From: Alkalinema sp. RU_4_3
Lineage (GTDB): Bacteria > Cyanobacteriota > Cyanobacteriia > Leptolyngbyales > Leptolyngbyaceae
Assembly (NCBI GenBank): GCA_012031975.1
Contig: JAAUSA010000015.1
Span: forward strand, 1 to 43,290
Direction of reading: 5' to 3'
DNA: 43,290 bases
The position numbers and the translations under genes were made by a program. Below, piece by piece: positions 987-38,051 of this stretch. The first letter of the stretch is position 1, and every line of letters begins with the position of its first letter. The notes beneath the pieces were generated by a model. The model was not told where the DNA came from, ran no database searches, and was given only the letters and a program-made list of their open reading frames with translations.

Positions 987-1539
987 TTAGATGATTGGAA
1001 CAATGATGTCATTATGATATGGGATGAATTGATCTGGGGAATCTATCTTGAGGAAGGGATCGATCGATTGTACTGGTATTCCTATGGGAGGATATTGTAG
1101 TTAGCCAACTATTAGGTGATATTTTGGCTTTCAAGTTGGTCAAGGAAACGAGTCAGTTTGTCAAAGCTACTGTTCATTTGTCAAATCTCCGATCGCTTAA
1201 AAGTTTACCACCTCTCCAAAATCTGTTGATTCTGGTTGATTGGGTGATTAGGGGCGCGGCTCCGCCCACTCAATCAACAGATTTGGAGAGGTAGTCAGAT
1301 TATGGACCGTACCATACAGTAGATGACCCAGGGAAGGCTGAGGCAACACAAGCATATCCTGCGTGTCAGCCGTCTTAAAATTCACCACAAAGAAATCAGG
1401 CAGTATATTGAAGCGAGTCGTGATGGCAAGAAAACTTAACAAATCCTAGCCTTACTTCACTCAAACGCAATGTTACCAGGGGATTCTCCCTAGCGCATCC
1501 GTTGCTATAATTTTCGATAACCTCGTTCCCTTCCCCAAG
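987..1539. other. Gene-free interval with a palindromic element
   Basis: No convincing gene is seen. A 64-codon minus-strand frame at 1248-1442 overlaps one arm of the palindromic element and has no recognisable family. It may be another decayed remnant. The last 100 bases should hold the promoter of the downstream oxidoreductase, but no clear -35/-10 pair or Shine-Dalgarno sequence stands out. Confidence 0.5.
1210..1292. repeat. 83-bp imperfect palindrome (possible MITE-like hairpin)
   Basis: The left arm (1210-1231, starting ACCTCTCCAAAATCTG) is the reverse complement of the right arm (1272-1292, ending CAGATTTGGAGAGGT) apart from one extra A. The inner flanks GATTGGGTG and CACTCAATC also pair with G-T wobbles, and a small GGCG/CGCC hairpin sits at the centre. 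The whole unit could fold into one long hairpin. It lies in a region of decayed mobile genes, which fits a non-autonomous mobile element or a relic of one. Only one copy is visible in this window. Confidence 0.55.
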
Positions 1540-2826
1540 ATGACCACCCCCAATTCCCTCGCCAAGGACCCTCAGCCGTCAGCCAATCCAGCCCACCATC
1601 AAATCCTAGTCGTAGGTGGTGGCTCGGCGGGCATCACCGTCACAGCCCAGCTTCTGCGGCAGGATCGATCGCTGGATATCGCGATCCTCGAACCCGCCGA
1701 TCGCCATGCCTATCAGCCCGCCTGGACCTTAGTGGGAGCAGGCTGTTTGGCCTTTGAAGACACGGTGAAACCCGAGGCGGATTGCATTCCCGAGGGCGCG
1801 ACCTGGCTGAGGAACGGGGTGGCTCAGTTTGAACCGGACCAGAACTATCTGGTGACCCAGACAGGGCAAAAAATTAGCTATGACTATTTGATCGTAGCGC
1901 CCGGCATTCAGCTAGATTGGGATCGCATTGCTGGCTTGAAGGAGGCCCTGGGTAAAAATGGCGTCTGTAGTAACTATTTACCAGGTGGCGCGACCTATAC
2001 TTGGGAGCTGATCCAACAGTTTCAAGGTGGCAACGCATTGTTTACCTTTCCCGCGACCCCGATTAAATGTGCTGGGGCACCGCAGAAGGTGATGTACCTG
2101 GCCGATGACAGCTTCCGGCGCAAGGGAGTGCGCGCCACCACACAAATCACCTATTGCACCGCCACGCCAAAAATCTTCGGAGTCCCCACATTTATTCCAC
2201 CCTTGATGCAGGTTGTGGAACGCAAAGGCATCGATCTGAAGGTGTCCCATAATTTGAAAGCCATTCACGGCGAGGCCAAGGAAGCGGTGTTTGACGTGAC
2301 GATCGACGGAGTCACCGAAGAGGTGACCATGCCCTACGACCTGCTGCATGTTGCCCCGCCCATGAGTGCGCCGGATTTTATTAAGGCGAGTAAACTGGCG
2401 ATCGCTAGTCCCCTGGGTTGGGTTGATGTGGATAAATATACCTTGCAGCACAATCGCTATGCCAACGTGTTTAGCCTAGGCGATGCCTCCTCCCTGCCGA
2501 ATTCCAAAACCGCAGCGGCCATTCGACGACAGGCGCCTGTTCTCGTGCAAAATCTCCTGGCCCTCATCCGCAAAGGCTCCCTGGATGCCAAATATAATGG
2601 CTATAGCTGCTGCCCATTGATTACGGGCTACGGCAAGACCATCATGGCGGAGTTTGACTACGAGGGCAATCCCTATCCCAGTTTTCCGCTCGATCCGACC
2701 CAGGAGCGCTACAGCATGTGGTTGCTCAAGCGCCATACGCTACCTTGGGTCTACTGGAACCGCATGCTAAAAGGTGCAGACCATGAAGGCAACGTGATTC
2801 GGCGCCTAACCGGAATGCGCTCATGA
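1540..2826 (+). CDS. sqr: Sulfide:quinone oxidoreductase, type II (SQRDL-like)
   Basis: This 428-residue flavoprotein should oxidise sulfide with transfer of electrons to the membrane quinone pool. The N-terminal dinucleotide-binding motif VVGGGSAG is at residues 24-31, and a second FAD contact FSLGDASS is at 311-318. The type II pattern is clear: KCAGAPQK with Cys177, and YSCCPLITGYGK with Cys357/Cys358, match the regions holding the redox cysteine pair of mitochondrial-type SQOR. No transmembrane segment is seen, as expected for a peripheral membrane protein. It stands alone, with 70 bases to the next gene. In cyanobacteria such enzymes serve detoxification of sulfide or, less often, sulfide-dependent electron supply. 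The sequence does not say which applies here. Confidence 0.85.
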   Translation: MTTPNSLAKDPQPSANPAHHQILVVGGGSAGITVTAQLLRQDRSLDIAILEPADRHAYQPAWTLVGAGCLAFEDTVKPEADCIPEGATWLRNGVAQFEPDQNYLVTQTGQKISYDYLIVAPGIQLDWDRIAGLKEALGKNGVCSNYLPGGATYTWELIQQFQGGNALFTFPATPIKCAGAPQKVMYLADDSFRRKGVRATTQITYCTATPKIFGVPTFIPPLMQVVERKGIDLKVSHNLKAIHGEAKEAVFDVTIDGVTEEVTMPYDLLHVAPPMSAPDFIKASKLAIASPLGWVDVDKYTLQHNRYANVFSLGDASSLPNSKTAAAIRRQAPVLVQNLLALIRKGSLDAKYNGYSCCPLITGYGKTIMAEFDYEGNPYPSFPLDPTQERYSMWLLKRHTLPWVYWNRMLKGADHEGNVIRRLTGMRS

Positions 2827-2896
2827 GCCCTTGGGGCAAAGATGAGGATTGTTTGAGAAATTGAGCTGAACGCCGCCGCTTCTGTAGAATAGAGCT

Positions 2897-5800
2897 ATGG
2901 AGCCTGTTGAATCAGCCCAGTCTATCCCCTCAGTCTCACCAATCTGCTGTATGGAAGTTTTGCATGGTACTTGGATTCCGGAAAGGAGCGATCGCTTTCT
3001 TCAAGGTGGTGCGTTCTACCTCTGGGTCGAAACAGACTTCCAATCCGGTGGGGGGAAGGACAACCATCATCCCAGCCATCTCAAAAGCACCGATCTCGCC
3101 AACTTCCTCCAGGACACCCTCGGACTAAAACCCCGCCCCCAAACCCCGACCCGCCCTAGGTCTCAACCCGCTTCGATCGCCAACGAAATCCTCCCCCGCT
3201 ATTTTCTCCTCCCCACCGATCGACACCAACCCCTGCCCTCCTGGGAAATGGCCCAGTACATGGAGAGGTCAATGCCGGAGGTCGTGGAATGGGACTATTG
3301 GGAAATAGATTGCTATCCTGCCCTGATCGGCCTCGATGACTATGGCCAACATCAGGCCAGTAACGTGATTCGGCTCCTACAGGAGCTAAACTTTCTGACC
3401 CAGCATCGGTTGATCGATGTGCAAATGGGAACGGATTTACTGTTTTGGTATCACTATACCCAGCAATTTAAGCAGGTGATTCTGCGCGATCAATATATCC
3501 CAGCCCTAAAATATCGTCCCACGATCACCGAATCCCGCAGCAATGAACTAGAGACCTTTGAGATCTATCCAGGCTGGGAAATTGTTTCGGAAAGTTACAA
3601 TGCGCTGGTCAAAAGTTTCAGCGAAGAAATGCCGCCTTTTTGCAGTGCGGGATTTGCGGTGGAGCCAGAGGAGCTGTGTTTGCATCAGACGGACCTGTTG
3701 CTTCGCCATTTCTCCGAGGTATTACTCCAGGAAATCGTACTCAATACGCCGAAACCCAGTACCTTTACGAAAAAGTATGACGATACGCTGTTGCAGGATT
3801 GTCTTCACAAGGATGATATTGAAGCCTTTTGGGACGATAATGTGGGTCTCGAACATTACTACAAATGGCGGGAATGGCGCGATCGAATCACCCATGCCGA
3901 AACCCCCGGTGAATTTGTACTCGCCTTCTGTGTGCGGGAACCCGCGCGATCCGAAGAGGATTGGAAAATTGTTTTGCAGGTGGCCCCGATCGCTGATCCG
4001 TCCCAGCTTTTAGATCTCAAAGCCTACTGGAAAAACCACCCGCCGCCCGCAGGGCCTTAAATCTTGGCGAAGACTTTGAGCAGAGCCTATTGCGCCACCT
4101 CGGCTACGCGGCTCGGATCTATCCGAAACTCTGGTCGGGCTTAGATAATGCTGAGCCTGACTCGATTCAGGTGCCCCTAGGTGAGGCCTTTGATTTTCTC
4201 CAGGAAGCGGCATGGGTCATGGAGGAAGCGGGCTATCGGGTGATTGTCCCCGCCTGGTGGACGCCGAAGGGCCGCCAGCGGGCCAAGGTGCGTCTCAAGG
4301 CAGATTCCAAAAAGGCAAATCCAAGGGTGATCAAGAGGGTTATTTTTCCGCCACGGCCCTCGCTTCCTACGACTATGAATTTGCCATTGGCGATCAGGCC
4401 GTTACCCGACAGGAATGGTCCCAGTTGATCGAAAACAAAGCACCCCTGGTGCAGTTTCGGGGGCAGTGGATGGCCCTCGATCGCGACAAGATGCAGCAGA
4501 TGATGGAGTTTTGGCAAAAGCAACGCGCCACCCAGCCGGAGATGAGTCTGGTGGATCTGCTGAAAATTTCGACCACCGATGATGACAGTGTGGAATTGCA
4601 GGTGGAGCACGATCGCACCCTCTCCGATATGATGCGGCGCCTCGGGGATAAAAGTCAGCTAGAGGAAGTGGCCGATCCCAAACAGTTCCAGGGTCAATTG
4701 CGCCCCTACCAGCGGCGGGGGGTGGGGTGGCTGGCCTATGTGGAAATGCTGGGCCTGAATGGCTGTCTGGCCGATGATATGGGCATGGGGAAATCCGCCC
4801 AGGTGATCGCTCGATTGATCCATGAGCGCGATCAAGCGGTCGGCGCTGTCAAAAAACGCAATGCAAAACCGCCTAAGGTCCGGCCTACCTTACTGATCGC
4901 CCCGACCTCCGTCATTGGCAACTGGGGTAAGGAACTGGAGAAGTTTGCGCCGCACCTGCGGTTTATTTTGCACCATGGGAGCGATCGTATCTGTGAGACT
5001 AAAGCCTTTACTAAGGCAGTCCAGGACTGTGACGTGGTAATTACTTCCTATGCCTTGGTGCGATTAGATGAAGCGATGCTTTCGGCGCAGCAATGGCAAC
5101 GTATTGTGATTGATGAAGCGCAGAATATCAAAAACCCGAAGGCAGCTCAAACCAAGGCTATTTTAAAACTCCCCGCTCAGCATCGGTTGGCGCTGACTGG
5201 AACGCCCGTGGAGAATCGGCTGCTCGATCTCTGGTCGATTTTCAACTTCCTCAATCCGGGTTACCTCGGCAAAGAATCGCAATTCCGGACTTCCTTTGAG
5301 CTGCCGATCCAGCGCGATCATGATTTGCCGCGATCGCTAACCCTAAAAAAACTCGTAGAACCCTTTATTCTCCGGCGAGTCAAGACCGACCCAGCGATCA
5401 TCCAGGACTTGCCCGATAAGGTCGAACAGAAATGCTACTGCAACCTGACCAAAGAGCAGGCCGCCCCTGTACGAAGTCGTCGTCAAGGAGGTCGGCCAAA
5501 AGATCGAAACCCTAGAGGGCATTCAGCGCAAGGGAATGATCCTCGCGACGCTGACGAAACTCAAGCAAATCTGCAACCACCCGGCCCAATTCCTCCAGGA
5601 CAACAGCGACTTCACCCCGGCCAGGTCCCACAAGCTAGAACGTCTCATGAACATGATCGAGGAAGTCATGGCCGAGGGCCAGAGTCTGCTGATCTTCACC
5701 CAATTCACCGACATCGGCGAATCCCTCGAAAAACTCTTCCGCCAGCAGCGCTATGCAACCTACTACCTCCACGGCGCCACGACCCGGAAAAAGCGCGAAA

Positions 5801-25536: not shown

Positions 25537-25607
25537 GGCGGCATGGCCAAGTGGTAAGGCAGAGGATTGCAAATTCTCCACCCTCAGTTCGAATCTGAGT
25601 GCCGCCT
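25537..25607 (+). tRNA. trnC: tRNA-Cys (GCA)
   Basis: A 71-nt cloverleaf: acceptor GGCGGCA pairs with TGCCGCC at 25600-25606; anticodon stem GAGGA/TTCTC encloses TTGCAAA with anticodon GCA at 25569-25571; the T-arm contains GTTCGAATC. CCA is not encoded. A hairpin terminator follows at 25619-25648. Confidence 0.95.
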
Positions 25608-25686: not shown

Positions 25687-26829
25687 GTTAGTGTCATGAG
25701 TTATTCGCGCTTCTTGCCCCGGTCGTGTTTGGCATGATCCCGCTCCACAACCAGGCAAAACACCGTCAGGCAGCTAGTTTCGTTGGGGAAAGCGCCAATC
25801 TCATCGGACTTTGTCCGAAACTCACGGAACAACCTCTCTAGATGATTGGTTGTGCGAATGTGACGATGCAAGTCTGACTCGAATTGATAGTAGGTCAGGG
25901 TCAACGCACTATCTTGAAGAAAAGTCCGCACAGCATCAGGTTCCAAGGACTGCCATTTTCCTTCAAAGGCATCCAATAGCGTCATGGCACCAGATAAATC
26001 AGGGCTTCAAAAATATCATAGGCATCTGAAACGATCTCAAAGCGCCATTGCTTCTTCGCCTCTGCGGATTTTACGGGCTGCTGTTGGTCATCGAATTGGG
26101 GTAACTCCAGATAGGCCAGATGCCGCTCTATCCCTCTTACTTTATGGGTGATGCATCGTTGTTGTTGAGTTGTGGGAAAGCAGGTAGCCAGGGCTGCCGG
26201 GCTCCCTAAACTGCCATCACTACTGACTAACTTTAATTGCTTTGGATCGAAGCCCCGACTAATCAGGTTTTGGAAGACTTTGGTCCAGGTATCCTCACTT
26301 TCAGTCTCTGCTACCTCATAATGTAGAAGATCTTGACGGCCATCAGCCCAGATCGCCATGACGGCCAGAACCACTCGTTCTTGGCCCATCACGTACAGAC
26401 AGCAGAGCCAATCCATCAGGTTGCCCAGGCTCCGCTGATAGCGCTCTAGGATCAGCCACTCCCGCTCTGCATTGCGCCGCCGTAGTTTGGGCACCTGCAA
26501 GTCTGGAATTGTGCCGTACTGCGTATTTAATCCTCTGGGATAAAAACCTGAACGCTGGGGTTTCTCATCCTCTATCTGAGCCAAAAATTCACTCATCTCT
26601 TCCTGTAATGCGCCTTCCATCACAGCTTTCACGGCTGAAATGACAGTTGTTCGCAAGGTCTCGTTCAGTTTGTCACTCAGGTCTGGATGGATGCCTTGCT
26701 CGCGGATCCGTAGTATCTGTTCCTCTCTTTCCAGAATCGTCATGGGAGATTACCTTCAAAGACTATGCCTTCTTGGTTGTAGCGTTTTTTGCCCATCTGG
26801 CCTCACCGCGAATAATTCATGACACTAAC
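25687..26829 (-). mobile_element. IS256-family insertion sequence, internally deleted
   Basis: The ends are a 23-bp terminal inverted repeat: 25687-25709 matches the reverse complement of 26807-26829 at 22 of 23 positions, with the transposase between them on the minus strand. The 1143-bp length is about 250 bp short of a typical IS256-family element, in agreement with the internal deletion in the transposase. No matching target-site duplication is seen in the 8-9 bases outside the repeats. Confidence 0.8.
25701..26743 (-). pseudogene. IS256-family (mutator type) transposase, in-frame internal deletion plus one frame break
   Basis: The N-terminal part has LSDKLNETLRTTVISAVKAV, FLAQIEDEKPQRSGFYPRGL and RRRNAEREWLILERYQRSLG. 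The frame then passes directly from DWLCCLYVMG to QERVVLAVMAIWADGRQDLL, where intact relatives have 80-90 residues more, including the first catalytic Asp. The second Asp (VSSDGSLG) and the C-terminal RTTNHLERLFREFRTKSDE with the likely catalytic Glu remain. One base is lost in the GGG at 26002-26004 (plus strand), so YDIFEA continues in another frame as PDLSGAMTLLDAFEGKWQ and runs to 25701. Because of the deletion it cannot transpose by itself. Confidence 0.8.
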
Positions 26830-30525: not shown

Positions 30526-31617
30526 TTAACCAATCGCAAAGGCCCGCTCCACCAACCAAACCATCCCCATGACAATAATTCCCCCAGAGGCCAAACGATG
30601 GAAATAGAGTCGCCATTGATCGCGATCGAGCAGTTTGTTAATCAACTTCAGCAGGAAGAAGCAAACCAACACGATCGCCACCTGCCCAATTTCGACGCCA
30701 ATATTAAAACTCGCAAGGCTGGCAAATAGGCTGCTTCGAGGAATCTGAATTTCCTTCAATACCCCGGCAAACCCCAAACCATGCAGCAACCCAAACCCAA
30801 AGGTCAGCATCCAACGGTGATCGAAGCTTTTGCGCCAAAGGTTTTCGACGGCGACATAGACAATGCTGAGGGCGATCGCACATTCCACAAATTGCGAGGG
30901 CAAACTCACGACATCTAAGACGGCCAAGGAGAGCGTTACTGAGTGAGAAACGGTGAACGCCGTCACAATCTTCAGCAGGTATTTCAGGTTGGTCCCGACC
31001 AATAGCAAGCTAATTAAAAACAAAATGTGATCGTACCCTATCAGAATATGTTCAATTCCCAGGGCGGCAAAACTGCTGACCTGCTGCCAGAGGGGGCGAT
31101 CGATTAAATTAAATTCCGACTGCGCAGGCGTAAATACCAAACTCTGGGATTTCCCCTGATAGGCTGCTGTGACTAAACAGCGTGATGCAGATGCATCCGG
31201 GGAGAAGAGTTTGTAGCGTAATGTGAGGGCTTCGATCGCACCTGGCCATTTATATTGCAGTCCTAAGCTGCTGTGGCTGGTGCCATTATTGGCTGAAGGG
31301 ATATTAGACGGCTGGTTAATGGCCCTAATTTCCCATTCCCCGACTTCGCCCTTTTGATTAAACAGAACGATCTTCTCGCCCATCTGTTTCTTTAATTCTG
31401 TCTGATGGCGATCGACCTCTTCCCCGGATAATTTCCCATCTTGATTGTCATCGGCAAACCCCACCAATCCCGTCGGAATCGTCAAATCAAAGGCAGCCTC
31501 CTGGGCTCCAATCCGAATATCGCCCACGGCCAGATCGGCCCAATGGGCTTGACTCGGAAAGGCGGTACAAAGGACGAGGAGGAGGGCGATCGCAAACTGG
31601 AGAAGTGGTTTACGCAT
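30526..31617 (-). CDS. HupE/UreJ-like membrane protein with extracytoplasmic domain
   Basis: 363 residues. A signal peptide (FAIALLLVLCTAFPSQAHWA) is followed by an exported domain of about 160 residues. It includes a calcium-loop-like motif DDNQDGKLSGEE (residues ~59-70). The C-terminal half has six or seven hydrophobic helices with the HupE/UreJ features ALGIEHILIGYDHILFLISL, AFTVSHSVTLSLAV and GFGLLHGLGFAGVL. HupE/UreJ proteins are thought to move nickel or cobalt, and histidine-rich helices like these fit metal transport. The long N-terminal domain is extra compared with the ~200-residue transporters. It follows the TPR gene by four bases, so the two are in one operon. Confidence 0.78.
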   Translation of the reverse strand: MRKPLLQFAIALLLVLCTAFPSQAHWADLAVGDIRIGAQEAAFDLTIPTGLVGFADDNQDGKLSGEEVDRHQTELKKQMGEKIVLFNQKGEVGEWEIRAINQPSNIPSANNGTSHSSLGLQYKWPGAIEALTLRYKLFSPDASASRCLVTAAYQGKSQSLVFTPAQSEFNLIDRPLWQQVSSFAALGIEHILIGYDHILFLISLLLVGTNLKYLLKIVTAFTVSHSVTLSLAVLDVVSLPSQFVECAIALSIVYVAVENLWRKSFDHRWMLTFGFGLLHGLGFAGVLKEIQIPRSSLFASLASFNIGVEIGQVAIVLVCFFLLKLINKLLDRDQWRLYFHRLASGGIIVMGMVWLVERAFAIG

Positions 31618-31621
31618 GGGT

Positions 31622-32929
31622 TTATAGGGTATCTAGACTAAGTTGTTTAGCGGCATCAAACGTCGGATCGAGCTGTTTGGCCTTGGTTTGATAAGCATTC
31701 GCACCATTGCTGTTACCTAAGGCCTGCTCAATCTGGGCAGCCTGCTGGAAGAAACTTACCTGCTGAATGCCAGAATTTAACGCCTGCTTCATGGCCTCGC
31801 GGGCCTCAGGCAGACGATTGTTTAGCCTTAAAGCGCGTGCAAACACTGCCATGGTGGTGGCATCCTGGCGTACTTTGACTTCGGCTTCCATTAAGGTGAG
31901 GGCTTCTTTGACATCTTGGTTTTGGGCGCGATCGAGGAGTAATTGGGCGAGTTCCCGGCGGTGGCCAAATTCGCTATCCTGGCGCAGGAGGTTTTCCGCC
32001 TGCTGGAGCAGGGCGTCGGGGGATTGGTTTTGCAGTTGCTTGATCCGAGCTTGGCCGCGAAGGATGGTGTGGTCGTAGACGTTGGGGGTGCCTTTGTGGT
32101 CTTCGGCTAGCTGATTGTAGTAGCGATTGGCTTGGTCATAATTGCCGCGCTGGGTTTCTAAGGCGGCTAGATATAATAGAGCTAAGGGATAGTTGGGAAC
32201 GAGCGTTAAGGCTTTTGTATAGAGTTCATGGGCGCGATCGATCTGTCCATGATGGTAGAAATGCCGCCCAAGTAAAACCCGAGTCTGAGCCGAAGCCGCT
32301 TCTTCGCCCCGTTCTTCGACTTCTAGACCGAATTGAAAGGTTTTGGCCGCAGAGGTTTTACCCTGGGCATCTTCGACAAGGCCTTGGAGGGTGAAATTTC
32401 CGAGATTAGGGAGTTTGTCTACAAGGGGTTTGACCAAAACCTCGGCTTCTTTGAGGCGGCCTGTGGCAAGATAGCAGGTGATCAATATCGATTTAGCTTC
32501 GTCGCTATTGGGTTTAGTCTGCAAAACCGTTTTGGCGATCGATTCCGCCTGTTTAAAGTCATGTTTTGCCTGGGCGACTTGGGCCAGAATTAGGCTAGCG
32601 CTGTCTTTTGCGACGGGGGATTGGGCGATCGATCGGTTGGCGGTTTGTTCCGCGAGTAAATACCAACTGACATCGCCTGTGGCTTTGCCGAGTCTCCAAT
32701 AGGCGGCGGCGAGGGCGGCAAGTTCTAGGCCGCTGGTGGGGTTTTGCTGGACTTTGGCTTGGTAGAAGGCTAGTTCTTTTTGGAGGCTGGCTTGGCGGGG
32801 ATTTAGCGATCGAGGTTTAGATAGGGGTGTTTGGGAACCTCGGACAATCAGGAGAATGGCGATTGTGGCGAGTAGTGATAGGGCAATTGGGAAATAGCGA
32901 TTGCGCGGGAAGGTCCGTAGGTTGTTCAT
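31622..32929 (-). CDS. Membrane-anchored TPR-repeat protein
   Basis: 435 residues. An N-terminal membrane anchor (YFPIALSLLATIAILLIVRG) is followed by repeated helical TPR-like units, among them AALAAAYWRLGKATGDVSWY, PNYPLALLYLAALETQRGNY and REAMKQALNSGIQQVSFFQQ. The anchor implies that the repeats face the periplasm or lumen side, next to the exported domain of HupE. It lies between the DUF4331 gene (110 bases upstream) and the HupE-like gene (4 bases downstream), all on the minus strand. Confidence 0.75.
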   Translation of the reverse strand: MNNLRTFPRNRYFPIALSLLATIAILLIVRGSQTPLSKPRSLNPRQASLQKELAFYQAKVQQNPTSGLELAALAAAYWRLGKATGDVSWYLLAEQTANRSIAQSPVAKDSASLILAQVAQAKHDFKQAESIAKTVLQTKPNSDEAKSILITCYLATGRLKEAEVLVKPLVDKLPNLGNFTLQGLVEDAQGKTSAAKTFQFGLEVEERGEEAASAQTRVLLGRHFYHHGQIDRAHELYTKALTLVPNYPLALLYLAALETQRGNYDQANRYYNQLAEDHKGTPNVYDHTILRGQARIKQLQNQSPDALLQQAENLLRQDSEFGHRRELAQLLLDRAQNQDVKEALTLMEAEVKVRQDATTMAVFARALRLNNRLPEAREAMKQALNSGIQQVSFFQQAAQIEQALGNSNGANAYQTKAKQLDPTFDAAKQLSLDTL

Positions 32930-32975
32930 GGTGGTGTGGTTTACATTTAATCGCTGCGCTGGGCGATCCCCCGCA

Positions 32976-32994
32976 TCCCCCTTAAAAAGGGGGA
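32976..32994. repeat. Short palindromic repeat (CCCCCTT...AAGGGGG)
   Basis: TCCCCCTTAAAAAGGGGGA is a near-perfect 8-bp stem with a 3-base loop, lying between the DUF4331 and TPR genes. The same core occurs as a dispersed repeat in many cyanobacterial genomes. On the minus strand TTTTT falls inside it rather than after it, so it is not a plain terminator. Confidence 0.5.
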
Positions 32995-33039
32995 CGTTGA
33001 GTTTGGGTTAGAGGGATCGGTGACGTTGTTTAGTAACAG

Positions 33040-34245
33040 TTAATTAGGGACAGCGAGATAGGGGAACTGTCGTGCCAAGGGTTGGTGGCCTTGGGCGGGA
33101 TTGCTGCCTGTGCCATTGTAGGAGACATTGTCGGAGGGAACCGCACCGTTGCTCAGAACGTTGAGGGTCTGATCTATTGTGTCATCCAACAGCAGTCGGC
33201 CTGCAATGGGCGATCCTTTACTGTTCGCTGCACTGACATAGCCACTGGGAATGCTGGTGTCAATTCGCATGACATCCGGCAGGAATGCGCCGAGCAGGAA
33301 ATTAGCGCGCTGATCGCTATTACCCAGGGCCATTAGGACGGTTTTCGCCTCGGCCCGTACGGGTGCAGCAGCAGGGGTCAAATCTGCAGTGGGTGGAATG
33401 CTGTTAAAGGCATTTAAGAAATCATTGGTAATCACCAAACCTTCATTAATACCAGGGCGACCCAATCGCTCAACCTGGGTATATTTACCATTTCTAGGAT
33501 CGCGCACCGAAATCGTTTCCCAGACATCAAAGACGGTGGTCGTTGTGCCATTTCTCAGGACAGGGCGAGGGACGCGGGCAACGATCGCATTGACGTTATA
33601 CCCCTTGGCAAAGTCCAGGGCCTGGCTGGCCGGACGGAAACCGACGGAAGGACCGATTTTTGCTAGGCCCGCCCGCACGCGGAAGAACTGTTCCACATCG
33701 AAGAAGAAGGGATCTTCGCGCAGACCCGCGAAGGTTTCGACGTAGCGGCCACTGACGGTCATGCGATTGACGATCGGGGCAGCATTCGGATCAGGAGCCA
33801 AGGGTGTCGTTTTGCCCCCATTCACGGAAAGGACTTTGCCATTGGCCAGCGTCGTCAGTCGAAACTCCTGCTGATTGTTCGCCTTAGGCTGCGAAAATTC
33901 GTAGCGCAGAACAATATCGTCTTTGCCTGTGGGAATGGACTCCTGATTGGCCGCATGGCTAATGTGGAACTCGTAGCGCGCATTGGGATTGAAGAAATAC
34001 TGCTGACGGGCCACCGATCGTGGATTCGTATTCATCACCAAGATCAAGTCCCCATCCTGGGCGGCAGGGTTTTGGTCTTTTTCTCGGAAGACGTAGAGGT
34101 CCGTGAGATTGACGTTGCGAGCCTTGGTTCCCGTTTCGCCGTCATCATGGTCCGAGGCAACAACAAAGCGAGGAGAAATGGCAGCAACGGCGGCAACCGC
34201 AACGGCAGCGGTAATGGCAGCCTGGAACAGGCGATTTCGTTTCAT
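33040..34245 (-). CDS. Exported DUF4331 protein
   Basis: 401 residues from the ATG at 34245 (MKRNRLFQAAITAAVAVAAV); the frame is open further up to 34374 without a credible start. The signal peptide is followed by SDHDDGETGTKARNVNLTDL, YVFREKDQNPAAQDGDLILV and AARYEF-like strands, the DUF4331 fold seen in secreted bacterial proteins. The opening S-D-H-x-D-G is characteristic of the family and may bind metal. Function is unknown. It heads a set with a TPR protein and a HupE-like protein. A candidate ECF-type promoter lies just upstream, and the ChrR-like gene is divergent. Confidence 0.8.
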   Translation of the reverse strand: MKRNRLFQAAITAAVAVAAVAAISPRFVVASDHDDGETGTKARNVNLTDLYVFREKDQNPAAQDGDLILVMNTNPRSVARQQYFFNPNARYEFHISHAANQESIPTGKDDIVLRYEFSQPKANNQQEFRLTTLANGKVLSVNGGKTTPLAPDPNAAPIVNRMTVSGRYVETFAGLREDPFFFDVEQFFRVRAGLAKIGPSVGFRPASQALDFAKGYNVNAIVARVPRPVLRNGTTTTVFDVWETISVRDPRNGKYTQVERLGRPGINEGLVITNDFLNAFNSIPPTADLTPAAAPVRAEAKTVLMALGNSDQRANFLLGAFLPDVMRIDTSIPSGYVSAANSKGSPIAGRLLLDDTIDQTLNVLSNGAVPSDNVSYNGTGSNPAQGHQPLARQFPYLAVPN

Positions 34246-34274
34246 AGTCTGTATATCCTGTTGAAGAGTGAATA

Positions 34275-34302
34275 TTCGATAGTTTGGAAACCTGTGGGTT
34301 CC
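34275..34302 (-). promoter_or_regulatory. Candidate ECF-sigma-type promoter of the DUF4331 gene
   Basis: On the minus strand GGAACCC (34302-34296) is followed after exactly 16 bases by TCGAA (34279-34275). This matches the GGAAC -35 and TCnnA -10 spacing typical of extracytoplasmic-function sigma factors. The ATG is 30 bases further down (34245), a normal leader length. The match is by eye, and the sigma factor would have to be encoded elsewhere. Confidence 0.4.
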
Positions 34303-34510
34303 ATCACGACTTGTGGGGGAATACGGGGTAAGCGATCGATTGGATCTGTAGGGTTTAAAATGATTGATCGACATGAGGCGTCATAGCCGCTCGCTATTGT
34401 CGAAATTGGGGTGGTTCTTACCACAACAGCTCTGACAATCAACCGATCTTTGCCATCGCCCGCTTGGAACGTCTAGTATGGAGATCTAATAGCAGCTACT
34501 GAGGAACGCT

Positions 34511-35158
34511 ATGACCGATCAAGCTGTGGAGAACGCTGGGAATCCCAAAGCGTCCCCAGAACCCGCCTGTTTCCCTGAACTCGCCCCCATGTACGCCCTG
34601 AATTGTCTCAGTCCCCAGGAACGCGCCTGGGTGGAACAGCAAATGCTCGATTGTCCGGACCTGGCGGACGATATGGTCCAGCAGCAGATGATTGTGGCCG
34701 CCATGGCCTATGATGCAGAACTTCCCATAGAACTGGAGCCGCGTCTGCCTGCCCTGAAGAATCAACTGTTCGATCGCCTCCAGCTCGATCTGCCTGCTGA
34801 ACCGTCGCTCGAAACGCCGATGTCGGGGTTTGTGCCGTTTTTTGCGATGCGATCGAGCCAGCTCAATTGGCTGGATGCGCCTGTGCCCAAGGTGAAGATT
34901 GCGCTGATCTATGCCGATGAAACCACTAGAGAAAAAGTAGGGCTGCTCCGGGCCGAGGCCGATATGGTCTATCCCCGCCATCGCCACGGCGGCACCGAGG
35001 AAATCTATATGCTCAGTGGCGATCTGACCCTTGAAGGGATTGTTTATCACGGTGGGGACTATATTCGATCGGCTTCTGGATCGACCCATGGTGAAGCCTA
35101 CTCGCGGGAGGGCTGCATGTTTTTCTTCCGCAGCTCTATGGATGACGATTATTCCTAA
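34511..35158 (+). CDS. ChrR-like anti-sigma/cupin protein
   Basis: 215 residues with two parts. The N-terminal ~90 residues resemble an anti-sigma domain (LAPMYALNCLSPQERAWVEQ), but the His-x3-Cys-x2-Cys zinc site of classical ChrR is not present. The C-terminal part is a ChrR-like cupin: YPRHRHGGTEEIYMLSGDL with two metal-binding histidines and a glutamate, GGDYIRSASGSTHGEA with a third histidine. In Rhodobacter, ChrR holds an ECF sigma factor until singlet oxygen releases it. No sigma factor gene lies next to this one. It is divergent from the DUF4331 gene across a 265-bp intergenic region that holds the candidate ECF promoter. Confidence 0.78.
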   Translation: MTDQAVENAGNPKASPEPACFPELAPMYALNCLSPQERAWVEQQMLDCPDLADDMVQQQMIVAAMAYDAELPIELEPRLPALKNQLFDRLQLDLPAEPSLETPMSGFVPFFAMRSSQLNWLDAPVPKVKIALIYADETTREKVGLLRAEADMVYPRHRHGGTEEIYMLSGDLTLEGIVYHGGDYIRSASGSTHGEAYSREGCMFFFRSSMDDDYS

Positions 35159-35196: not shown

Positions 35197-38051
35197 TTAC
35201 GCCCCCCGCAATGGAGCCTCGATCGCCTTCGCAATCCGATCCTGGGCCTCTTCTAGGTGCGCCAGGGTGTAGATGTCCTTGCGATCGACCTTCCGCACCG
35301 CCTTCGAGATCGCATCCCGCAATTGTCTCAGCTCGTAACGGGCCACGGTCCGGGCATCCTCGGGCGCATTGTCCTGGCGCAGCACCATGCCGATCAAGAT
35401 GCCCATGTATTCGCGTTGCAAGGCCCGGCGCAGCCCGGAGAGCTGAACCCTGTCGCCGGGATTGAGCACATCGCCCCAGATACTGGATTGGATGCGATCG
35501 AATAGCTCCGGAATCGGCAGGGTTTGGGCCGGGTCCTTGAGTTCCCCGTCGCGTAGGCGGGAGAGGCGACTGTAGGAAAGTAGATCGTAGAGGGTGCTGG
35601 ACTGCAGGGTCAGGATGCTCTCAAAAATCGGGTAGTCCAGCCGGAAGACCGCTGGATTGGCCCCCCAATGCTCCCACCGTGAAGGGGCTAGCTTATTGAG
35701 CAGCGACGGCTCGAACTGGAACGCCTTCTCGTCGAAGACATTCTTGGCGATCACATCCAGGGCCAAACGCTGGTCCACGAGGCTCACCGATCAAAGGGCA
35801 GACGGCTCTTGGCATCCCCATAGCGATAGCGATTGAAGGACTGGCCCCCCACATAGTTGGTCAAAAACGAAGCGTACTGGAAGTAATAGCCAAACACCGC
35901 GTTAAAGGCCACCCGCACATCGTTGAAACTCTCACCCTGCAAGGGATAGCGCTGCTCCAGCCGCTTCCACATGGCGCGGGCATTGTCCATCTGCCACTGG
36001 CCGTAGGTCAGCAGATTGCTGCTGAGATCGAACAGATTGGTCTGCGGATCGAGGAAGGAGAATACATCTTCGTCGGTGGCATAGGCCAGATCCGGTTCGG
36101 CGGCGCGGGCAGCAATCTTTTCGAGGGTCGATCGCTCCTCAATCGGCGTCCTGGCCCCCGTGGTGCTGTAGCCGTAGGCGATCGCCCATTCGTCGTAGGG
36201 GCCGATGCGGCTCGTGTAGTAGTCACCCTGTTTGGTGCCCTGGGGGGCGAGATTCACGGCGGTGTAGTCCATCACCGAGGCGACCAGGCCCTTTTGGCGG
36301 GTCAGCTCGGTGTTGTTGAGTTCCTCGGGCTTGAGCATGGCGCTGGCCCGGAAGTTGTGGCGCAGACCTAGGGTATGGCCGACCTCATGGGCGATCAATT
36401 CCCGCAGGAACTGGTTGACGTATAGCTTCATCTCGGGGCTGCTGGGCAGATTGTTCTGCATCAGTTGCAGGTGCATGTTCCCGAGGGCAAACTGCTGGGC
36501 TGCTTCCATGCCGTAGCAGAGATCTTGGGTGCCGATCGGATGGGGCGTGAACCGGAGGAGTTTGCCAACCTTGGGGGCTTCCTGCTGCTTGCGGGCTAGT
36601 TGCTTCCCGGCGGGGCCATAGTTGCAGAGGTTTTGCTTGCCGATCAGGGCGGAGACGAAGGGGACGGTGGATTCTTGGTTTTGTTCGATGATCGTGCGGT
36701 ATTCCTGCTTGAGCGATCGCACAAAGTTGGCATCTACCACAATGTCGGCATCCAGGATTTGGCCCGTTAGGGGATTGACCCGCGAGGGTCCCATGGCGAA
36801 GATGGCGTCCGTGGAGTTGAACCAGCGGATTGTGTTGTAGCGGACGTCGGCGGGGTCCCAGTCGGCCTTGTCGGGCATCTGCTTGGCGACCACGGCGTCT
36901 TTGAAGCCGATTTTTTCAAAGGCCTGGTTCCACATCAGAATGCCATCGCGGACTGCATCGCGGTATTCCACGGGGACCGTGTTCTCGATCCAGAAGGTGA
37001 TCGGTTCGCGGGGTTCGGAAACAGCGGCAGTCGGGTCCTTTTTGTCGAGCTGCCAGCGGTTGATGTAGCGCACAAAGGGCTGGCGCTGGCTGTCGTCGTT
37101 GAAGTCCTGGAAGGCGGTGATGAAGTAGCCGAGGCGATCGTCGGCGAGCCGGGGTTTGTATCCCGTATTTTCGGGCAGCTCCGAAATGCTATAGCGGAGT
37201 TTGAGATCAAAGGCCCGGCTATCGGGCAGGGCTTGGAAGAAGCTGGGGAACGGGCCACCGCCGCTGCCGCCGTCGAAGCCGAAGATGGATTCGATCTCGA
37301 CGTTGAGAGGTAGGTTTTTCACCTGGCCGAAGTAGGTGCGGTTGGGGTTGGGGGCGTAGGCGATGCTGCCCAGGGCCGAGCCGAGGCCGGGTAGATCGCC
37401 GAGCAGAAGGGGATTGAGTTCGATTAGCAGGGATTTGCGGGCGTTGTGAATGCTGCGGATCGGTAGGACTTCCAGGACCGAGTCACTGAAGGATCGATCG
37501 ATCGATCGCCGCATGGGCGTACCCTGGGCGGCCCGGAAATAGTTATTCGGCACCACGAACTGCACGGTGTTGTTGACCCGCCGCAGGCGGAAGAGAAAAT
37601 CCCCGGCGGGCATGCCGCTGTAAAGGCCCTTTTCGCCGATGCCCGATTCGAGGGTCATCACCATGAGGAAGTTGCGATCGAGCTGTTCCGGCAGTACTTC
37701 AGCGTAGAGTTTGCCGTTCTTTTCGTTGCGGTAGAGGGTGAGCAGGCCCTGGGTGCGGGTGGTGTCCTTGGTGACCAGCTCGAAGGGGCGGAAGGGATCG
37801 CCCTCTTCGCCGGGGCGCTTGGGTCCGGTCCCAGGTCTGCCGTCGGAGCTGCTGCCGGGGCTGTTTTGGGCGGTGGGGGCAGTGGTTTTGGGCGCAGGTG
37901 GGCGCTTGCCGGGATGGAAGATTTTTTGAATAATCTGCTGGCCAATTTCACGCGGCGAGGCAGCTTGGGCGCGGATATTGCTCAGCCCCAAGGGCGCTAA
38001 CACCAAGCTCAAGCCCAATACAAACGCCCAAAACGTTGTTCTCCGTTTCAT
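35197..38051 (-). CDS. Exported zinc-dependent metalloprotease, DUF5117/DUF4953 type (one frame break)
   Basis: About 951 residues once a single G near 35789 (plus strand) is restored. At the break, GDAKSRLPFD continues as PVSLVDQRLALDVIAKN. A signal peptide (TFWAFVLGLSLVLAPLGL) precedes a proline-rich linker, the DUF5117 domain (LLTLYRNEKNGKLYAEVLPE, then LVMTLESGIGEKGLYSGMPA-like), and the DUF4953 zinc protease with HEVGHTLGLRHNF (HExxHxxGxxH). A helical C-terminal region (FDRIQSSIWGDVLNPGDRVQ) closes it. These secreted gluzincin-like proteases have no well-established role. The gene is large, alone and convergent with the ChrR-like gene. Confidence 0.8.

Follow-up and report, generated by a model that had tools for sequence, protein, structure and literature searches.

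A DUF4331, TPR and HupE gene set of Alkalinema as a candidate ECF-regulated cassette for metal capture and import

What could unite a secreted protein of the DUF4331 family, an anchored tetratricopeptide repeat (TPR) protein and a HupE/UreJ-like permease, encoded one after another in the cyanobacterium Alkalinema sp. RU_4_3 and divergently from a ChrR-like anti-sigma factor? We analysed these genes in a stretch of 43,290 nucleotides (contig JAAUSA010000015.1, positions 1 to 43,290 of the forward strand; hereafter the window). Our favoured answer, to which we give a probability of roughly 60%, is that they form one expression unit, an envelope cassette under an extracytoplasmic function (ECF) sigma factor that captures and imports a transition metal, most likely nickel, with cobalt or copper possible. 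An earlier note on this DNA, made from its letters alone, had proposed an envelope system for metal uptake or stress response under ECF control, and had called the four proteins as DUF4331, TPR, HupE/UreJ-like and ChrR-like cupin, calls that Pfam confirms in each case. The features concerned are these:

34511–35158, plus strand: ChrR-like anti-sigma factor, divergent, with an RskA-like N-terminal part (below cut-off) and a cupin (Pfam/NCBIfam)
34320–34347, minus strand: ECF-type promoter motif AGATCCA-N15-CGTATT, matching at 12 of 13 positions and directed at DUF4331 (motif scoring)
33040–34245, minus strand: DUF4331 gene (PF14224), secreted product (Pfam; alignments of 15 and 39 sequences; AlphaFold2 (AF2) model)
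32976–32994, strand not assigned: stem-loop TCCCCCTTAAAAAGGGGGA between DUF4331 and TPR
31622–32929, minus strand: TPR protein with one N-terminal membrane anchor, by eye (Pfam; order conserved in relatives)
30526–31617, minus strand: HupE_UreJ_2 permease with an exported N-terminal anglerase-like domain (Pfam; alignments; AF2 model; Foldseek/VIA match to 9GCE)
31545, minus strand: predicted mature N-terminus of the permease, His1 (by sequence)
31417–31452, minus strand: EF-hand-like loop DDNQDGKLSGEE, mature residues 32–43 of the exported permease domain (alignments, AF2 model)

Read along the minus strand, the order is DUF4331, then TPR, then HupE_UreJ_2, with the ChrR-like gene divergent, and the gap between TPR and HupE is only four bases (31618–31621), as had been observed before. 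The DUF4331 product matches PF14224 over the whole profile (1–421 of 421; 215.8 bits, E 1.7e-63, cut-off 27), the permease matches HupE_UreJ_2 PF13795 (159.1 bits, E 8.8e-47, gathering cut-off 24.5), the ChrR-like protein matches Cupin_7 PF12973 (65.6 bits), and the TPR protein matches TPR families. Where four exported or membrane products had been counted we find three, the ChrR-like protein having no signal peptide that can be seen by eye. The DUF4331 open reading frame (ORF) could open at 34374, upstream of the promoter motif; given the alignment of homologues, the AGGA ahead of the ATG and the motif at 34347–34320, the ATG at 34245 (MKRNRLF...) is likely the real start. The predicted mature protein begins S-D-H-D-D-G at 34155.

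Conservation of the set was assessed in two samples of cyanobacterial loci. For the first, named genomes were scanned with the patterns [AS]SDHDDG[ED] and FAGLREDP and the best 80 of 190 loci were taken; 79 of these had a clean DUF4331 ORF and are here called the named loci, while L140, with no DUF4331 ORF passing the filter, was left out. The second, chosen by hidden Markov model (HMM), is a pattern-free comparison set of 36 regions with 37 DUF4331 ORFs. Regions L052–L087 and L088–L167 overlap in genomes, and close relatives among them are not independent. A search with PF14224 found the family in 12 of 146 genomes across the phylum and in 24 of 42 genomes of the window's own family, the window genome included in each, and the order DUF4331, TPR, permease recurs around the matches.

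In 75 of the 79 named loci DUF4331 is followed by a TPR gene in the same orientation; three of the remaining four end within 1 kb of DUF4331 and in the other, L135, the TPR ORF overlaps, giving TPR after DUF4331 in all 76 loci that can be judged. A permease is found downstream in 67 of 79, or 67 of the 70 that can be judged: of the 12 loci without one, nine stop at a contig end and three (L100, L122 and L141) truly lack it. The HMM-chosen regions have TPR in 30 of 36 and permease in 27 of 36. Six of them are without TPR, comprising a contig end (L055), four DUF4331 genes of another context (L081–L084), and L068, in which a 389-residue ORF at the TPR place was missed by clustering. Because the order is conserved among relatives in this way, we rejected chance neighbourhood of the genes. 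The top DUF4331 identities among the best 80 of 190 loci, at 68–69%, are to Alkalinema sp. and to a Synechococcales metagenome-assembled genome. Variations on the set were also seen. DUF4331 is split in two ORFs in three distant genomes (L085, L086 and L087), in the last of which TPR and HupE stand before it, and small exported Cys-rich proteins (L089 5560–5952; clusters c6, c9 and c7) lie beside the permease or upstream in many loci. Examples of two of these clusters have no NCBIfam match and the L089 copy has no Pfam match, and one c7 member has a DUF732 match below cut-off.

The set also recurs on plasmids of Actinomycetota and Pseudomonadota. Of the plasmid records, 5 of 10 in one listing and 10 of 42 in another were opened, and two of the 15 plasmid stretches (L240 and L241), being unannotated, were left out of the analysis. 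An annotated Streptomyces plasmid carries DUF4331, TPR and a 'nickel transporter' in that order, and the plasmid of a Streptomycetaceae strain has a sortase gene between DUF4331 and TPR, followed again by a 'nickel transporter'. The order is DUF4331, hypothetical, HupE in Lichenicola, and DUF4331, an extra small gene, hypothetical, HupE in a Comamonadaceae strain, Marinobacter and Pseudoalteromonas. In all four the permease is HupE_UreJ_2 by Pfam, which also matches TPR in the middle protein over the cut-off in Marinobacter and Pseudoalteromonas, below it in the Comamonadaceae strain and not in Lichenicola. All seven non-cyanobacterial permeases that were read have His after a plausible cleavage site, and directly upstream of the Pseudoalteromonas set are genes for an ECF sigma factor and an RskA-type anti-sigma factor. 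DUF4331 and TPR also occur together in Adhaeribacter (Bacteroidota) and Miltoncostaea, in a gene table that is incomplete. The earlier note would have counted a lack of conservation against the set; what we see instead is an order held beyond this genome, in several phyla, reaching further than that note expected.

DUF4331 is met in other company too. On a Methylocystis plasmid it is without a signal peptide and stands alone, and on plasmids of Sulfitobacter, Jannaschia and Paracoccus (Rhodobacterales; L248, L251 and L252) its neighbours are genes for type II secretion, GspK, GspJ and A24 peptidase among them, and the annotation within 4.5 kb of it lists neither TPR nor HupE. This is a hint that the Rhodobacterales protein is secreted there, possibly by a dedicated secretion system.

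The permeases of the 67 named loci fall into 46 of NicO type, 18 of HupE type and 3 unclassed by motif, the window's HupE type being the minority; the NicO type was assigned by a GHGKT motif, except in four examples scanned by Pfam. PF03824 (cut-off 27.7) is matched at 65.5 bits in L089, 47.2 in L066, 40.4 in L069 and 30.7 in Streptomyces L239. NicO-type permeases have His-rich loops in most rows and a PCPSALV-like motif; those of the close group open with an HWADLA... exported domain, and the NicO permease of L089 sits under the same such domain as the window's HupE. By these motifs and matches, two nickel/cobalt permease families alternate under one exported domain, with the same partners, and this exchange suggests that what is conserved is the capture of metal on the outer side of the membrane rather than the channel. 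Three loci, L089, L056 and L136, extend the run directly downstream with CbiM, CbiN/PDGLE, CbiQ and CbiO genes (by Pfam in L089, by clustering in the other two); in two of them, L089 and L056, genes for an ECF sigma factor and a ChrR-like protein come after the Cbi genes, all on one strand.

The nature of the exported domain is suggested by the AF2 model of the window permease (predicted local distance difference test, pLDDT, 85.2). Foldseek matches the domain to 9GCE, copper-bound Ang-1, at E 9.6e-5, and 9GCE, ZrgA and PA4063 alone fall below 0.001. In VIA the match to 9GCE starts at residue 1 and covers 132 residues (Z 10.7, 3.5 Å), followed by the zinc proteins ZrgA (8F1B, Z 10.3) and PA4063 (Z 9.2–9.6). 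As modelled, then, the exported domain is an immunoglobulin (Ig)-like beta-sandwich as in 9GCE, with 13% identity to RbAng-1a in the structural alignment; a PDB sequence search with profile A4 gave no match at E <= 1. Mature N-termini were read by eye with the -3/-1 rule. Cleavage of the window permease is read between PSQA and HWADL, which would place His first, and His stands at the predicted mature start in 66 of 67 permease loci. In an alignment of 67 rows (66 loci and the window) His1 is constant because the rows were chosen by an HWxD-type pattern; no row departs from D4, D32 or E43, and H47 is found in 63 rows and H91 in 66.

Franco Cairo et al. (PMC12537917) described an anglerase permease of HupE/UreJ-2 proteins in October 2025. 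According to the main text of their paper, copper in Ang-1 is held by His1 and Asn41, RbAng-1a binds Cu2+ and Ni2+ with dissociation constants of 74 nM and 220 nM, and the authors propose that the anglerase domain catches metal and hands it on to the permease; that main text mentions neither DUF4331 nor cyanobacteria. In the literature that we searched, with preprints and most subscription papers outside its coverage, 'anglerase' is mentioned nowhere else, and DUF4331 or PF14224 not at all. The combination had earlier been held to have no described function. This stands for DUF4331, which has no role in that literature, but not for the exported His1 domain, which in HupE/UreJ-2 proteins is the Cu- and Ni-binding anglerase of PMC12537917. 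The anglerase permease itself is already known; what appears new is its place in a three-gene cassette under regulation.

The calcium-loop-like motif that had been pointed out in this domain is real, its first Asp and last Glu being invariant in the 67 rows; it lies inside the anglerase-like domain, and calcium may not be what it binds. The loop, DDNQDGKLSGEE, spans D32–E43 and in the AF2 model stands beside predicted helices; calcium binding and shaping of the metal site are alternatives for it.

An N-terminal X-X-His is the amino-terminal copper and nickel (ATCUN) pattern for Cu2+ and Ni2+, and the secreted DUF4331 protein is predicted to carry an ATCUN-like Ser-(Ser/Asp)-His at its N-terminus. 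The 79 of 79 named loci with SDHDDG are a biased count, because the scan patterns contained SDHDDG. The fair set is the HMM-chosen one, in which a small residue and then S-D-H or S-S-H follow a signal-like N-terminus in 33 of 37 ORFs, still scored as a text match. The four exceptions are L073, cut by a contig end, and L081–L083, which have no signal peptide, TPR or permease; these last are DUF4331 paralogues with an MSHH... start in a different neighbourhood. On plasmids, S-S-H or S-D-H follows a signal-like stretch in 12 of 13 DUF4331 proteins (L249 with Ser ahead). The AF2 model of DUF4331 has a pLDDT of 87.6; its best VIA match is to antibody V domains (Z 6.6), which may reflect just a shared beta-sandwich. 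Searching PDB sequences with the DUF4331 profile brought up five matches, weak (best E 0.00028) and for the most part to designed helical proteins, which we judged spurious. The TPR part of the anchored protein is predicted to lie outside the cytoplasmic membrane.

ECF control was approached through gene neighbourhood and promoter sequence. An ECF sigma gene (cluster c4, Pfam on one member) is present in 36 of the 79 named loci and a ChrR-like gene (c3) in 37; the former is divergent and upstream in 32 of its 36 loci, and accompanies 15 of 18 HupE-type loci versus 12 of 46 of NicO type. A split 5+5 word count over 32 ECF–DUF4331 stretches, given no motif, ranked GATCC-N16-CGTAT and AGATC-N17-CGTAT first, each in 30 of 32 stretches and directed at DUF4331. 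When the motif AGATCCA-N15-CGTATA was scored within 500 bp ahead of the mature DUF4331 start, 12–13 of 13 positions matched in 34 of 36 loci with an ECF gene, in 6 of 43 without one and in 0 of 79 on the reverse strand. The spacing is always 15 where the score reaches 12, which is the score of the window. Exact sites in 30 genomes number 46 versus 6 for a backward control, an excess that is in part built in, because the 30 genomes come from the loci in hand and most were known motif carriers. The 42 sites that could be placed comprise 23 ahead of DUF4331, 6 of ChrR-like, 1 of ECF, 3 of DUF4394 and 2 of Ferritin_2 genes, and 7 elsewhere. In L236 (795, minus strand) and L237 (2542, plus strand), both Leptolyngbyaceae, the motif lies between the ECF and ChrR-like genes, an arrangement by which the sigma factor would increase production of its anti-sigma factor, a feedback.

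As to the further genes with the motif, it stands ahead of DUF4394-like genes in L223, L224 and L225 (genomes G207, G209 and G210), the L224 protein having RTX calcium-binding repeats by Pfam, and cluster c17 (DUF4394 by Pfam in L138) is directly ahead of DUF4331 in seven Nodosilinea/Leptolyngbya-type loci. A protein with a Ferritin_2 domain (assigned by Pfam on the L133 copy) and a twin-arginine (Tat)-like signal is encoded at L235 3526–4248 and L226 6254–6889, each time with the motif upstream, and the Ferritin_2 genes with the motif adjoin DUF4331 or ECF genes.

No ECF sigma gene lies beside the ChrR-like gene of the window, and none of the 18 Sigma70_r2 matches of its genome is on the window contig. 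Counts of motif sites in this genome are uninformative, and only their positions carry weight. With one mismatch allowed, one site lies ahead of DUF4331 and another (C128:6423–6396) lies, on a different contig, 96 bp ahead of the ECF gene C128:5713–6300. For five sites spread over both strands of 5.25 Mb, the chance that any falls within 300 bp before a given gene is about 1 in 7,000. The C128 ECF shares 64% identity with the ECF linked to DUF4331 in L119, compared with 39% for the next ECF of the genome, and against the 36 linked ECFs its best identity is 62.6% and its median 57.9%. From these identities and the position of the C128 site we conclude that this genome very probably does encode the cognate sigma factor, at an unlinked place, the anti-sigma gene having stayed by the DUF4331 operon.

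The case for a single metal cassette starts from three things that comparison between genomes shows: the genes stay together across phyla, the permeases are exchanged, and an ECF-type promoter motif accompanies them. The set, its envelope location and its ECF control, all part of the earlier proposal, are well supported by this comparison, and metal handling is strongly suggested. The sequence of events that we infer, including the metal, the direction of transport, the N-terminal sites at work, the TPR dock and the inducing signal, would be as follows. Low metal, or another signal sensed by the cupin, would cause the ChrR-like anti-sigma factor to free an ECF sigma factor, in this genome probably that on the other contig, and the sigma factor would drive transcription from the site at 34347–34320. 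The exported DUF4331 protein would bind the metal, probably via its free, ATCUN-like Ser-Asp-His N-terminus; the anchored TPR protein would be a scaffold or docking site; and the His1 anglerase-like domain would take the ion over and deliver it through the HupE channel beneath into the cell. Nickel is favoured because it is common to ATCUN sites (Cu, Ni), anglerase (Cu, Ni) and HupE/NicO/CbiMNQO (Ni, Co).

Several points weigh against this reading. Its claims of metal binding, transport and expression rest on sequence and predicted models. Model confidence for DUF4331 is lowest at its first residues (pLDDT about 50), and the model has no Foldseek match in the PDB at E <= 0.001. For the permease, the unrelated 7VCF reaches VIA Z 9.7 on the membrane half, so that the VIA Z-scores are near background, and for this reason we weight Foldseek above VIA; L134, outside the alignment set, has Asp in place of His1; and the second anglerase ligand is poorly conserved. 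CbiM neighbours the set in no more than 2 of 79 named loci, with L056 as a further case. With regard to the regulon, the motif sites ahead of DUF4394 and Ferritin_2 genes have no obvious tie to metal uptake, and the window genome, with one mismatch allowed, has 5 sites versus 5 for the backward control. Two of these, 97 bp before a 1006-residue ORF (L232 1413, plus strand; ORF 1510–4530) and 130 bp before a 197-residue ORF (L234 723, minus strand; ORF 3–593), have no known connection and are possibly regulon members or chance; a third further site (L233) lies within an ORF. Finally, a search of the window and the relatives L089, L056, L119 and L093 for known riboswitches found only tRNA at the gathering threshold, and riboswitch control was dropped.

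The best placed of the rivals, which we nevertheless think unlikely, is metal export: the permease, RcnA-like in most relatives, would expel nickel or cobalt, and DUF4331, the TPR protein and the exported domain would buffer metal outside the membrane. Because the NicO family includes RcnA, an efflux protein, the direction of transport can be read either way. The sole NCBIfam match of the L089 NicO-type permease is the nickel/cobalt efflux transporter PRK10019, at 118.3 bits and below the cut-off of 195; the His-rich loops of most NicO-type rows also favour export, and ECF control of nickel/cobalt resistance has a precedent in the Cnr system. Import is favoured, on the other hand, by the CbiMNQO importer genes that share the run in three genomes, by the description of HupE as an importer, cobalt having rescued a Synechocystis hupE mutant in the account given in PMC4284471, and by the proposal in the main text of PMC12537917 that anglerase domains capture metal for uptake.

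We consider improbable an oxidative or singlet-oxygen envelope response, in which the ChrR-like protein would sense reactive oxygen and the set would repair or shield the envelope, with metal handling secondary. Singlet oxygen is what Rhodobacter ChrR answers, and the ligands HxHx3E...H that hold zinc in its cupin (PMC6852236) are kept, all four, in 41 of 42 ChrR-like sequences, the window's included; in addition, the motif contains GATCC and is common to Ferritin_2 and DUF4394 protein genes. However, the HxxxCxxC motif of the true ChrR zinc-binding anti-sigma (ZAS) domain is absent from the first 110 residues of all 42, the score against the ChrR family TIGR02451 (NCBIfam) is far below its cut-off (22.4 versus 124.5 bits), the core sigmaE–ChrR targets named in the excerpted text of PMC6852236 (rpoE-chrR and furan fatty acid genes) are not seen here, and the ECF partner in Pseudoalteromonas is an RskA-type anti-sigma factor with no cupin match. 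Since the ChrR-like protein lacks that zinc motif, the stress (ChrR) control contemplated by the earlier note is only a guess. A metal-sensing cupin would fit a metal-uptake regulon. As for a calcium or surface-layer system in which the set serves calcium-dependent envelope assembly, the invariant D32 and E43 of the EF-hand-like loop, the motif-bearing DUF4394 genes of 3 genomes (RTX repeats shown in one) and the upstream presence, in 20 of 117 stretches (a number of them from one genome), of cluster c5, which NCBIfam assigns to the DVUA0089 family and whose tail looks PEP-CTERM-like by eye, speak for it, but both permease families are annotated for nickel/cobalt and the exported fold resembles Cu- and Zn-binding proteins, and we regard it as very improbable indeed.

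A bolder form of the metal-import cassette, which we offer tentatively and think a good deal less likely than not, makes DUF4331 a secreted protein metallophore. Its Ser-Xaa-His would take Ni2+ (or Cu2+), and a relay of TPR dock, His1 anglerase domain and either nickel/cobalt permease would operate across Cyanobacteriota, Actinomycetota and Pseudomonadota, in cyanobacteria as an ECF-sigma regulon which, in some lineages, feeds back on the cupin anti-sigma factor. We found no proposed role for DUF4331, and its bond to a His1-topped nickel/cobalt permease provides a metal-trafficking hypothesis, with His3 of DUF4331 and His1 of the permease as candidate key residues. The promoter motif likewise provides cyanobacteria with a predicted ECF regulon that has a cupin anti-sigma factor.

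Other features of the window may be noted briefly. The stem-loop TCCCCCTTAAAAAGGGGGA could, speculatively, reduce expression of the genes downstream; terminator-like sites number 6 against 5.6 expected, which is not significant, and ordinary sigma-70 promoters, rejected as an explanation, 1 against 3.5 expected. The set is flanked by cytochrome c6 petJ, a further TPR gene and a split metzincin gene. The last, of metzincin type (DUF5117/DUF4953; 35197–38051, minus strand), consists of two ORFs overlapping at 35784–35787 with a one-base frame change, and the DUF4953 profile runs on from 218 to 227 over the break, for which a broken gene, a sequencing error and a frameshift are alternatives. A transposase-like ORF at 25982–26743 (minus strand), presumably a truncated IS256-type element, lies near tRNA-Cys at 25537–25607.

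It remains to set the cassette beside known systems. In CnrYXH of Cupriavidus an ECF sigma factor likewise governs nickel/cobalt handling; that system drives an efflux pump, uses a membrane anti-sigma factor and a periplasmic sensor, and is not known to include DUF4331, TPR or HupE. The GATCC of the promoter motif found here is a likeness to RpoE–ChrR (ECF11) of Rhodobacter sphaeroides, whose -35 element contains it. A further likeness is the pairing of an ECF sigma factor with an anti-sigma factor that has a C-terminal HxHx3E...H cupin (PMC6852236). Unlike RpoE–ChrR, the system described here has no anti-sigma zinc motif, has other targets and, in the window genome, has an unlinked sigma gene. 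ZrgA (8F1B) and PA4063 (7AMX) have the same fold as the exported domain by Foldseek and VIA, and are separate proteins of other zinc systems, not known to be fused to HupE or NicO. The Ang-1 and Ang-2 permeases (PMC12537917; 9GCE) have in common with the window permease an exported Ig-like sandwich with a predicted His1, joined to a HupE/UreJ-2 membrane domain, and helices that connect strands 2 and 3, seen here in a predicted model. The main text of that paper reports Ang-1 particularly in Pseudomonadota and Ang-2 only in Actinomycetota. The domain occurs here in cyanobacteria too and, unlike Ang-1 and Ang-2, is joined also to NicO and tied to DUF4331, a TPR protein and an ECF promoter motif.

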